A DNA stretch of 64,000 bases from Rubripirellula reticaptiva (GTDB lineage: Bacteria; Planctomycetota; Planctomycetia; Pirellulales; Pirellulaceae), in assembly GCF_007860175.1 (NCBI RefSeq), contig NZ_SJPX01000004.1, positions 744,001 to 808,000 of the forward strand, given 5' to 3'. Positions 12,810 to 15,861 of this stretch are shown piece by piece. The notes under the pieces were generated by a model. It worked only from the letters and a program-made list of their open reading frames with translations. It was not told where the DNA came from and did not search any database. Numbering within the stretch: the first letter of the stretch is position 1; each line of letters begins with the position of its first letter. Made by a program: the position numbers and the translations under genes.

Positions 12810-13391
12810 TGCGGTTGTTCGTCATCGGCGTCGTGTCTCGCTGTGCAATCCACATCGGTCTATGGGGTTTGATGCCGGAAATACTGTTGGTTACGGGCTT
12901 GCAAAGGCCCCAGACGCGATTCGCTATTGTTTAGGCCTTGGCTTTTCGCGAAATCGGATGTACTATCTGTCGGTGCCGTGAATTGCGAGAGCAAGTTTGC
13001 GGCGTTTTGATCTGATCGGAAATAAGCGAGTAGCGTGAGTCGAGATTTCGATTTGCGTTTTCCGGTCGAGCCAGGTTCTCTAACGAGTTCGGATTCTCTT
13101 AAGACTTGGTTCCACGGTGTCGGCATTTTCGCCGCGCTCAATGCTGTTGACCATCGGTTGTGTAAACCGCTCTGGAAGGCCGCCGGCGTCCCCTGAGTGG
13201 CGCACCAGATTCTGTGACTTTCTTGTTTGTCCAGAGTAAAAGACTTTAGGCGTTTCCGCGCCGACCCCCGAGTGCGTTCAAGCGAATGCAGGGATGCTTT
13301 GCACTTTCGTGCCGCCAATCGTTGCGTTCTTCGCTGCGTATTCGGCGCCGTCTGTCACCAAACGCATCTGTGTCACTGCGATGATTGGGGA
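12810..13391. other. 582-nt gene-free region between rplK and the DEAD-box gene
   Basis: No convincing gene on either strand; a minus-strand open frame (12860-13318) has noise-like composition. A stem AAGGCC (12904-12909)/GGCCTT (12934-12939) enclosing GCGATTCGC and followed by GGCTTTTC may end the rplK transcript. I looked for RNase P, tmRNA and SRP RNA core motifs and saw none. The rest may be a long leader of the helicase mRNA, as is usual for cold-induced helicases (inference). Confidence 0.5.
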
Positions 13392-14894
13392 ATGAGAAAC
13401 CATCCTTACAGGAAATTGTTGTTGAATCACTTTGAAGAAATCGACCTGATCGCCCCTATTAAGCGGGCACTGGCCGAAGAAAATTACATTACGCCGACGC
13501 CAATCCAAGCGCAGACGATCCCAGCCGCGATCACCGGCTGCGATATCTTGGGCTGTGCGCAAACCGGAACTGGCAAGACCGCTGCGTTCGCTTTGCCGAT
13601 TTTGAATCGGTTGGGCATGCAGAATCGCAAGCCAATTCCGAATCAGCCTGCTGCTTTGATCCTGGCGCCGACGCGTGAGCTGGCTGTGCAGATCGGTGAC
13701 AGCTTCGACACCTATGGCAAGCACTTGCGAATTCGCACTGCGCTGGTTTACGGTGGCGTGAACCAAAATAACCAGATCCGAGCAATGGATCGTGGCGTCC
13801 ATGTCTTGGTCGCGACGCCGGGCCGATTGCTGGATTTGATCAATCAAGGTCATATCAATCTAAGTCGCTTGGAAATATTCGTCTTGGACGAAGCCGACCG
13901 CATGTTGGATATGGGCTTTTTGCCGGATCTGAAGCGAATCATCAAGGAACTGCCCGACAGCCGCCAATCGTTGTTCTTTTCGGCCACGATGCCGCCAAAG
14001 ATCGTCGAGCTGTCGCAGCGTCTGTTGCTCAACCCCGTTACCGTGACTGTCAAGCCAAAAAAGTCGACCGCTCAATTGATCGAGCAGCAGGTCGTTTTCT
14101 GCGAACGCGGGCAGAAGCAGGATTTGCTGAAGGAAATCGTGCGATCGGATCATGCCGAGCGAGTGATTGTGTTCACTCGCACCAAGCGGGGTGCCAATAC
14201 GGTTTCCGACAAGCTTGAAAAAGCTGGCATTTCTTCGGCGGCGATCCACGGCAATAAGTCGCAAAATGCTCGTCAGCGGACGCTTGATTCGTTCCGCAAG
14301 AACAAGATTCATGTTTTGGTCGCGACTGACGTGGCCGCTCGCGGAATCGACATCGATGGCGTGACGCACGTGATCAACTATGATCTGCCTACCGAACCGG
14401 AAAGCTACGTTCACCGCATTGGACGTACCGGACGAGCGGAAGCGTCAGGGATTGCTATTTCATTCTGCACGCACTCTGAACGTGATGATTTGCGAGCAAT
14501 CGAGTCGCTGATCGGCAAAAAAGTTCCACTTGCCCCTAACCAACCCAAATCAACACCAGGTGGCGAGCGAGAAGAAGATCGTCCGTCGCGTGGACAAGGC
14601 CGCGGAGCCGCTCGCGGACGTTCGCGATCAGGAAAGCCTTCGGGCAATTCGAGAGTCAAGTCGGCTGGTTCGACATCGGGTGCCGTTCGGTCAGGTGTCG
14701 CAAAGTCGGGCGTCGCAAAGTCATCGGGCTCAAATGTCTCGGCTGCTGTCGTTCCGGTTGCTAGTCGTCCCGCGGCAAAGCGGAAACCTAGTTTTGGTGC
14801 TGGAATCATGGAAACGGACGGTAATCGTGCCCGTCGTTCGGGCGGTCCACGCCCCAAGGGTTCCGGACGGAAGCCACGGGCGCCTCAATCCTGA
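13392..14894 (+). CDS. DEAD-box ATP-dependent RNA helicase, RhlE/CsdA-like
   Basis: Unwinds RNA duplexes in ribosome assembly or mRNA decay. Motifs in order: Q motif (TPTPIQAQTIP), motif I AQTGTGKT, Ia PTRELAVQ, II DEAD (residue about 165), III SAT, IV IVFTRTKRGA, V ATDVAARGIDIDGV, VI YVHRIGRTGRA. The C-terminal 120 residues are Arg/Ser/Gly-rich and disordered, typical for RNA-binding tails of RhlE. ATG at 13392 is chosen (500 residues); the frame is open farther upstream, but that part (for example AFRVRSSEC-like sequence) has no homology I recognise. Located just upstream of a small basic protein and a cold-shock protein. Confidence 0.93.
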   Translation: MRNHPYRKLLLNHFEEIDLIAPIKRALAEENYITPTPIQAQTIPAAITGCDILGCAQTGTGKTAAFALPILNRLGMQNRKPIPNQPAALILAPTRELAVQIGDSFDTYGKHLRIRTALVYGGVNQNNQIRAMDRGVHVLVATPGRLLDLINQGHINLSRLEIFVLDEADRMLDMGFLPDLKRIIKELPDSRQSLFFSATMPPKIVELSQRLLLNPVTVTVKPKKSTAQLIEQQVVFCERGQKQDLLKEIVRSDHAERVIVFTRTKRGANTVSDKLEKAGISSAAIHGNKSQNARQRTLDSFRKNKIHVLVATDVAARGIDIDGVTHVINYDLPTEPESYVHRIGRTGRAEASGIAISFCTHSERDDLRAIESLIGKKVPLAPNQPKSTPGGEREEDRPSRGQGRGAARGRSRSGKPSGNSRVKSAGSTSGAVRSGVAKSGVAKSSGSNVSAAVVPVASRPAAKRKPSFGAGIMETDGNRARRSGGPRPKGSGRKPRAPQS

Positions 14895-14972
14895 AATTCT
14901 CGGTCTTGAGCGGCAAGTTGTGTCTGCTTACCCGAAAAATCCCCAATTTTATTACGCTGACGGAGAATACCC

Positions 14973-15149
14973 ATCGCAAAAAATCAAAACACGTTCGCTA
15001 AGCGACAACGCGAGATGGAAAAGAAGTTCAAGGCAAAGGACAAAATTGCCAAACGAGCCGTCCGCAAACTTGCAATCGAAAATGGGACATTCCATGCCCA
15101 ACCTGAGGATGATTCATCCGAAGATGACGAAGCGAATATGGATGATTAA
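14973..15149 (+). CDS. 58-residue Lys/Glu-rich protein with apparent ATC start codon
   Basis: In this frame an in-frame TGA (14958-14960) is followed only by CGG AGA ATA CCC and then ATC at 14973; no ATG, GTG or TTG precedes a coherent reading frame. A Shine-Dalgarno GGAG (14962-14965) stands 7 nt before the ATC, the optimal distance. The product would begin (f)M-AKNQNTFAKRQREMEKKFK, then a basic helix to about residue 33 and an acidic tail ending EANMDD. The start of this sequence resembles small AKNQNTFxKRxREMEKK-type proteins I know from several bacteria, of unknown function. An internal ATG at 15012 would remove this conserved-looking part and has no ribosome binding site. ATC is a permitted but very rare bacterial start. 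Context (DEAD-box helicase, cold-shock protein) suggests RNA-related cold adaptation (inference). Confidence 0.72.
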   Translation: MAKNQNTFAKRQREMEKKFKAKDKIAKRAVRKLAIENGTFHAQPEDDSSEDDEANMDD

Positions 15150-15177
15150 AAACGATGGCCCCGTTGGCCGACAAATC

Positions 15178-15186
15178 TGCTAGAAT
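15178..15186 (+). promoter_or_regulatory. extended -10 promoter of the cold-shock gene
   Basis: TGCTAGAAT (TG-n-TAGAAT) matches an extended -10 element. There is no good -35. Transcription would start near 15193, giving a leader of about 160 nt before the cold-shock ATG at 15352. A short palindrome TGGAA-TTCG-TTCCA (15186-15199) overlaps the predicted start site. Confidence 0.5.
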
Positions 15187-15215
15187 GGAATTCGTTCCAT
15201 TTAAGAAATTAAGAA

Positions 15216-15259
15216 AGCGGGACAAGACAACAGCCGAAAGCCGGCTGCCCTTTCCCGCT
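15216..15259 (+). promoter_or_regulatory. structured 5' leader of the cold-shock gene
   Basis: AGCGGGA (15216-15222) pairs with TCCCGCT (15253-15259) and encloses an inner hairpin CAGCCG (15231-15236)/CGGCTG (15242-15247). Long structured leaders are known to control cspA-type mRNAs by temperature; whether this one does so is inference. Confidence 0.5.
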
Positions 15260-15351
15260 GTAACCGTTGACCCTGTGCAGTCGAGCGTCGTACGAACGTT
15301 TCTTTCGGCGTTGATTGTGCAACTGTTTTGAAGAGTATTGGAAGAGAAGAG

Positions 15352-15555
15352 ATGGCTGAAGGCAAAATCAAGCGTATCACCGACAAAGGTTTCGGATTCA
15401 TTGAAAATGAAAGCGGAACTGATATGTTTTTCCACAGTTCGTCGCTCGAGGGAGTCGCTTACGACGACCTCCGCGAAGGACAAAAGGTTGAGTACAGTGT
15501 TGGCCAAGGTCCTAAGGGCCCACGTGCTGAAAACGTACGCTTGATTGAAGGCTAG
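15352..15555 (+). CDS. cold-shock domain protein (CspA family)
   Basis: 67-residue single cold-shock domain, an OB fold that binds single-stranded RNA. RNP1 is KGFGFIENE (around residue 13); RNP2 is DMFFHSS (usual DVFVH). The end is GPRAENVRLIEG. ATG at 15352 follows a purine-rich GGAAGAGAAGAG; an in-frame TTG at 15328 is less likely because the family starts two residues before GKIK. Its transcript ends at the strong terminator at 15718-15757. Confidence 0.95.
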   Translation: MAEGKIKRITDKGFGFIENESGTDMFFHSSSLEGVAYDDLREGQKVEYSVGQGPKGPRAENVRLIEG

Positions 15556-15861
15556 AAATAGCCAAACCATGGTCAACCGGCGGGCAATCTGTCCGGCAAG
15601 ACCATAACCGAGAATTCGCGTCAAAGTCGGTGCTTGCCATCTCTTTGAAAACGGTCTCACTTTCACTCGCGTCATGGATGTCCATGTGATGTGAATTTGA
15701 TTCCGAAGCTGAAACCGAACACCGCTATCTCGATTTCGAGTTAGCGGTGTTTTTTTATGCGCATGGCTAATCGAGTGTTTCAAAACTGATCTGAACTTTT
15801 TTGGCGCAGGCTGCTACCGTCCGATGGAATACCACCACGCACACGCCGAAGGAATCCACGG
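15556..15861. other. 3' region of the cold-shock gene and cfa upstream region
   Basis: 306 nt without a gene. It contains a weak stem ATGGTC...GACCAT (from about 15569) enclosing CCGG/CCGG, then the strong terminator at 15718-15757. The cyclopropane synthase promoter should lie after the terminator, but I see no clear boxes there. Confidence 0.5.
15718..15757 (+). terminator. Rho-independent terminator
   Basis: AACACCGCTA (15718-15727) pairs with TAGCGGTGTT (15742-15751), and inside it CTCG-ATTT-CGAG forms the tip (one T-T mismatch between). A run of T residues follows to 15756. It ends the cold-shock transcript. Confidence 0.92.

Follow-up and report, generated by a model that had tools for sequence, protein, structure and literature searches.

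A predicted AUC start codon conserved in a small planctomycete protein gene between a DEAD-box helicase and a cold-shock gene

Introduction

At which codon does translation begin in a gene that has no ATG, GTG or TTG ahead of its conserved residues? This question is raised by a gene of 58 codons in Rubripirellula reticaptiva (assembly GCF_007860175.1), located in a 64,000-nucleotide stretch of contig NZ_SJPX01000004.1 (positions 744,001 to 808,000, forward strand) that is here called the window and is numbered from its first letter. A sequence-only reading of the window had proposed ATC as the start codon, and our re-reading confirms the arrangement that it described. An in-frame TGA stop at 14958-14960 on the plus strand is followed by the Shine-Dalgarno (SD)-like motif GGAG at 14962-14965, and 7 nucleotides separate this motif from the ATC at 14973-14975. 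From this codon, the small gene (14973-15149, plus strand) runs through 58 codons to the TAA at 15147-15149. Four codons (CGG AGA ATA CCC) lie between TGA and ATC, and none of them is ATG, GTG or TTG, in agreement with the claim that no canonical start exists on the N-terminal side.

We propose that the gene encodes a small protein whose synthesis would begin with the initiator tRNA at the AUC codon behind a strong SD site and whose output would be limited by the initiation factor IF3, and we consider this explanation as a whole probable. AUC initiation itself is strongly supported by the comparison of related loci.

Results

The ATC codon is conserved at the aligned start in two planctomycete orders

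The 58-residue protein finds matches in 16 of 60 genomes, including the window genome, and its two closest relatives share 78% and 74% identity with it. Fifteen proteins from this search, 11 of which start with ATC (translated as Ile at residue 1), were combined into a profile that matches 66 of 241 genomes of the window's family, 21 of 246 genomes sampled across the phylum and, within the class, 102 of 397 sampled genomes. A contig scan contributed 56 named loci, including Rhodopirellula maiorica, Stieleria sedimenti, two Kiritimatiellia and records titled Rubripirellula, Gimesia and Planctomicrobium. Starts were read at 75 places from the family search, 20 from the phylum search (the window's own excluded), three from the protein search and the 56 named loci, and these 154 loci reduce to 129 distinct start regions once identical ones are merged. 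A part of the 102 class-search genomes is represented, by starts already in this set and by 39 further loci, from which 12 repeats were dropped (L388, regarded as the L142 locus, and 11 loci flagged as duplicates); L384, which occupies the same place as L014, is counted once, via L014.

Among the resulting 156 distinct start regions, the aligned start is ATC in 96, ATT in three, ATG in 44, GTG in eight, TTG in four and unclear in one, with two assignments made manually (GTG rather than ATT in G283, and unclear, GCG, in G022). The conservation of ATC or ATT at this position, which the sequence-only reading had put forward as a check, is thus borne out by 99 of the 156 regions. Because related genomes encode the protein and carry ATC at the aligned place in so many of these regions, the codon reflects more than chance.

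Of the 74 distinct loci from the window's family (f1), 48 start with ATC or ATT. Copies with an AKRQRE-like segment have ATC or ATT in 47 cases and ATG in nine; where an EK segment takes its place, in 16 copies, the start is ATG, GTG, TTG or unclear. Two further copies belong to neither type. In family f21, which belongs to another order of the same class, ATC or ATT is found in 8 of 8 and 31 of 33 loci, or 39 of 41 together, a count that takes in L388, whose ATC sits one codon 5' of the matched stretch. One locus of family f13, from the window's order, also has ATC. Canonical starts are found in the loci read from families f2 (two), f7 (four) and f17 (two), in the two Kiritimatiellia and in 12 loci of other families of the phylum. 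The predicted AUC start is therefore kept across two planctomycete orders. Some genomes hold two or three family members, namely G077 (L025, L091) and G126 (L085, L087), and one of the two copies in G077 starts with ATC and the other with ATG.

Protein conservation begins at the ATC codon

Does the conserved codon act as the start, or is it an isoleucine codon within a longer or shorter gene? Among 72 ATC/ATT loci that share a register, 70 have ATC and two have ATT as codon 1. Protein conservation starts at this codon, and the one conspicuous feature 5' of it is the ribosome-binding site: conservation is absent from codons -12 to -5, and codons -4 and -3 mirror the SD motif. In codons 2-18, residues are kept and third bases vary, a pattern that excludes a conserved RNA element in place of a protein; no Rfam family matches positions 14800-15700 at E 1. 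Codon 2 encodes Ala, Gly, Thr or Val in 71 of the 72 loci, and a small residue at this place is compatible with removal of the first Met. Codon 1 ends in C in 70 of the 72 loci (96 of all 99 ATC/ATT members), whereas the Asn codon at position 4 is mixed, with AAC in 27 and AAT in 42, which indicates that the nucleotide itself is held beyond what an Ile codon demands.

A canonical start further 5', with ATC as an inner Ile codon, draws on the ATG, GTG or TTG codons that stand somewhere between stop and start in 44 of the 97 ATC/ATT loci with a stop in view, a count that also speaks against AUC initiation. However, no such codon exists in the window or in the other 53 of the 97 loci, the upstream residues are unconserved, and an inner Ile codon should also vary to ATA, GTN or CTN. 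We give this alternative practically no credence. The internal ATG offers a second alternative, in which a protein of 44 residues would start at residue 15. The sequence-only reading was right about the presence of this codon but placed it at 15012, three bases from its actual position at 15015-15017 (plus strand). It is the first ATG in frame, and 60 of 99 ATC/ATT members carry Met at residue 15. Nevertheless, codons 2-20 contain no ATG in 34 of the 99 members, codons 2-14, which this alternative would leave untranslated, are the most conserved part of the protein, and GGAG is spaced for ATC; we therefore reject the internal ATG as a highly improbable start. ATC thus stands as the predicted start codon.

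A strong SD site accompanies the ATC codon

The GGAG motif lies 3-10 nucleotides 5' of the start in 87 of 99 ATC/ATT members, with a spacing of 6-8 nucleotides in 82 of these 87, and occurs in 18 of 56 family members with a canonical start. As a reference, 143 aligned starts from 800 kb of the window genome were chosen mechanically as the first codon that is canonical in both of two compared genomes. GGAG precedes 12 of these 143 starts, a number that is a lower bound since some of the reference starts are misplaced. The predicted AUC start is thus accompanied by a strong SD site in a genome where such sites are rare. A weak codon behind a strong SD site has likewise been described for sigR (PMC5472188) and for infC, cvfC1 and ccpN of Staphylococcus aureus (PMC13009471).

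Rarity of such starts in 225 ortholog pairs, and features of the initiator tRNA, uS9 and IF3

If initiation were generally relaxed in these bacteria, AUC might be tolerated at a start without any role of the codon. The anticodon stem of the initiator tRNA is one place where such a relaxation could reside. This stem usually consists of three G-C pairs. The initiator tRNA-Met of the window genome (C6:44177-44251; L299 1469-1543) has A29-U41, G30-C40 and G31-C39. An A29-U41 pair is shared by each of the 45 parsed loci of the class, and 14 loci outside the class divide into nine with A-U and five with G-C, although all of these loci are best matches to an A-U-type query and G-C types are under-sampled. 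This pair is insufficient to explain the AUC start because canonical family copies coexist with tRNAs of this type, as in the genomes or groups g46, g47 and f7. A special initiator tRNA with the anticodon GAU was also considered and rejected, as the single pattern match in the window genome (C2:1193689) is not a tRNA by ARAGORN.

Relaxed initiation should also make AUC and AUU starts common, yet the pairs screened show a single case. A comparison of 800 kb of the window genome with 1.2 Mb of G003 yielded 225 orthologous open reading frame (ORF) pairs with at least 45% identity, and the small gene is the only one that has ATC or ATT near the start of conservation together with a GGAG- or GAGG-type SD site in both genomes; this screen covers approximately one tenth of the genome, and other cases may exist. 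In a looser screen of 114 pairs, no aligned canonical start lay within reach in 36, and 35 of these also lacked an AUC or AUU codon with an SD match; many of its gene boundaries are doubtful, and our conclusion on rarity rests on the stricter screen. In addition, the third base of the start codon is kept as C, as described above, and the tail of ribosomal protein uS9 is the standard SKR in the 12 loci read. Relaxed initiation is thus a very unlikely explanation, and a specifically retained AUC start is preferred.

IF3 is encoded in the genome and, of four arginines compared with E. coli, keeps the residues that match E. coli R99, R131 and R168. Its gene, infC (window genome C4:640957), is separate from the small gene, in whose product no IF3 domain was detected in Pfam or NCBIfam at E 1. 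In 31 infC loci (L165-L195), ATC stands behind an SD site near the start of conservation in 14 and ATT in one, with canonical codons further 5' in some of these loci. A second ORF of the window genome (L196, C1:438904-439182), below the family cut-off, carries a stretch resembling the IF3 C-domain behind a cysteine-bearing N-terminal part, and a similar weak match exists in G003.

The predicted product combines a basic helix with an acidic tail

In the structure model, the small protein forms a single helix of residues 7-36 that is followed by a low-confidence tail. Charge is divided accordingly along the chain, with 13 K/R and three D/E in the first 34 residues and no K/R and ten D/E in the remainder. 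At E 1, the window protein matches nothing in Pfam or NCBIfam. The 15 profile members have no PHROGs or NCBIfam match at E 0.01, and their comparison with Pfam at the same threshold gives a single weak match, RUFY4 (one of 15, E 0.0091). Searches of the PDB and of plasmids at E 10 found no match. The protein may resemble the basic segment at the N-terminus of cold-shock domain proteins in Bacteroidota.

The gene lies between a helicase gene and a cold-shock gene

The placement of the small gene between a DEAD-box helicase gene and a cold-shock gene holds in the window. The helicase ORF (13227-14894, plus strand; PF00270 and PF00271) is given from its first TTG, and its true start is possibly different. 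The cold-shock domain gene (15352-15555, plus strand; PF00313) lies downstream on the same strand, beyond a spacer of about 200 nucleotides (15150-15351). Read in frame, the segment right before the cold-shock ATG is nearly alike in the window genome and G003, and is perhaps a conserved mRNA leader.

These neighbours accompany the AUC start in many relatives. A same-strand helicase lies upstream in 46 loci, 42 of which have the same non-canonical codon, ATC or ATT, at the aligned start, and a cold-shock gene lies downstream in 44 loci, 43 of which start with ATC or ATT. Expressed by start type, the helicase is found in 42 of 78 ATC/ATT loci versus 4 of 50 canonical loci, and the cold-shock gene in 43 of 78 versus 1 of 50. 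Where at least 900 bases are available on both sides, one or both neighbours occur in 50 of 70 ATC/ATT loci (both in 29) versus 4 of 44 canonical loci, and neither lies in the flanks of the other 20 ATC/ATT loci. A tree of the 46 helicase cores, built by a quick method that leaves 21 of 43 inner branches open, requires three changes of start type. Since 41 of 500 shuffles need as few changes and the branches of two ATG rows are long, the tree says little.

Discussion

How would an AUC start serve the cell? In the mechanism that we propose, the strong SD site would recruit the 30S subunit, the initiator tRNA would pair with the AUC codon, and IF3 would disfavor the resulting initiation complex, so that output would stay well under the level of an AUG start and track IF3 activity. 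The limited output and the response to IF3 are expected by analogy with infC, sigR, ccpN and cvfC1. That the start sets the level of the protein can fairly be inferred from these published cases. The start may also be stress-responsive, as the sequence-only reading had suggested, and for this the neighbouring genes are the only argument. More weakly, we infer from the basic helix, the acidic tail and the neighbouring genes that the product could be a small RNA- or ribosome-associated protein that acts together with the helicase and the cold-shock protein.

Several observations weigh against this explanation. ATG occupies the aligned start in 4 of the 46 helicase-linked loci, in 2 of the 33 further f21 loci and in 10 of the 74 window-family loci outside the EK-type copies, which means that AUC is dispensable in some loci. 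GGAG is lacking in 12 of the 99 ATC/ATT members. The infC gene of the window's own genus shows GTG instead of AUC (10 loci), in the window genome 13 nucleotides after a GGAG, and IF3 has no counterpart of E. coli R147. RNA structure around the start is no better than that of shuffled sequences (z -0.16, 0.69 and -0.01). The profile is biased toward the ATC branch, from which most of its members come, and the loci are related, so the start-codon counts do not represent independent events. The four helicase-linked ATG loci also bear on the contrary outcome that the sequence-only reading had named, relatives with a displaced ATG and unconserved first residues: no such relatives appeared, and in these four loci the ATG is aligned with the ATC of the others and is followed by the same residues.

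Two other views of the function differ from our explanation in opposite directions. In the narrower one, AUC fixes a constant low level of the protein, and regulation by IF3 or stress is of no importance to the cell. All that can be read from the locus is a start codon and an SD site, no regulatory RNA structure emerged from the shuffle test or from Rfam, and the AUU start of S. aureus cvfC1 shows no effect of medium in a published assay (PMC13009471). A hairpin over the start was likewise rejected, as folding equals that of shuffled sequences. However, discrimination by IF3 against near-cognate starts is general, so that some sensitivity to IF3 is expected, and the helicase and cold-shock neighbours hint at a varying need for the protein. 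We regard a purely constant level as unlikely but worth keeping in view. The broader view is a planctomycete-wide AUC switch, in which the protein would be a translation or ribosome factor that tracks the activity of IF3 or free 30S subunits, forms a second feedback loop beside infC in organisms that also have a non-standard initiator tRNA, and tunes the adjacent helicase and cold-shock protein. This scenario appears doubtful to us, and we retain the IF3-limited AUC start of a small protein gene as our explanation.

The ordinary explanations of the ATC codon fail, and the gene is a well-supported addition to the small group of genes in bacteria that keep a near-cognate start. We found no description of this AUC start in the open-access literature, with other print not excluded, and no work on translation initiation in this phylum in the same literature. 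Gene finders restricted to ATG, GTG and TTG would miss or shorten the small gene. If its start is regulatory, the gene would naturally report on start-codon discrimination in planctomycetes.

The published cases of conserved near-cognate starts that we found are few: infC, pcnB, sigR, ccpN and cvfC1. In E. coli, pcnB starts with AUU, and this weak start limits the output of poly(A) polymerase, a product unrelated to the small protein. Another parallel is infC, which likewise combines a near-cognate start (AUU, AUC or AUA) with an SD site and which starts with AUC in Streptomyces (PMC5472188). However, infC encodes IF3 itself and forms an autoregulatory loop, whereas the small protein lacks an IF3 domain. 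The sigR gene of Streptomyces shares a conserved non-canonical start and an extensive SD site with the small gene and has been shown experimentally to be repressed by IF3, but its start is GTC and its product is a sigma factor; conservation is described within one genus, with GTC in 32 and GTT in two of 34 cases (PMC5472188). The ccpN gene, whose AUA start and extended SD site are kept between S. aureus and Bacillus subtilis (PMC13009471), encodes a transcription repressor and uses AUA instead of AUC. In Borrelia, a crystal structure of nicotinamidase supports a longer protein that starts from AUU (PMC13398362). The staphylococcal cvfC1 gene encodes a protein of 61 residues from an AUU start behind a strong extended SD site; in poor medium, this start yields approximately 10% of the output of AUG (PMC13009471). 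It thus resembles the small gene in protein size, conserved near-cognate start and strong SD site, and differs in that its product has a possible zinc finger instead of a basic helix. The conservation of cvfC1 is reported among staphylococci, whereas the small gene, which has no family name, is notable for its depth, with a predicted AUC start that is kept across two orders.
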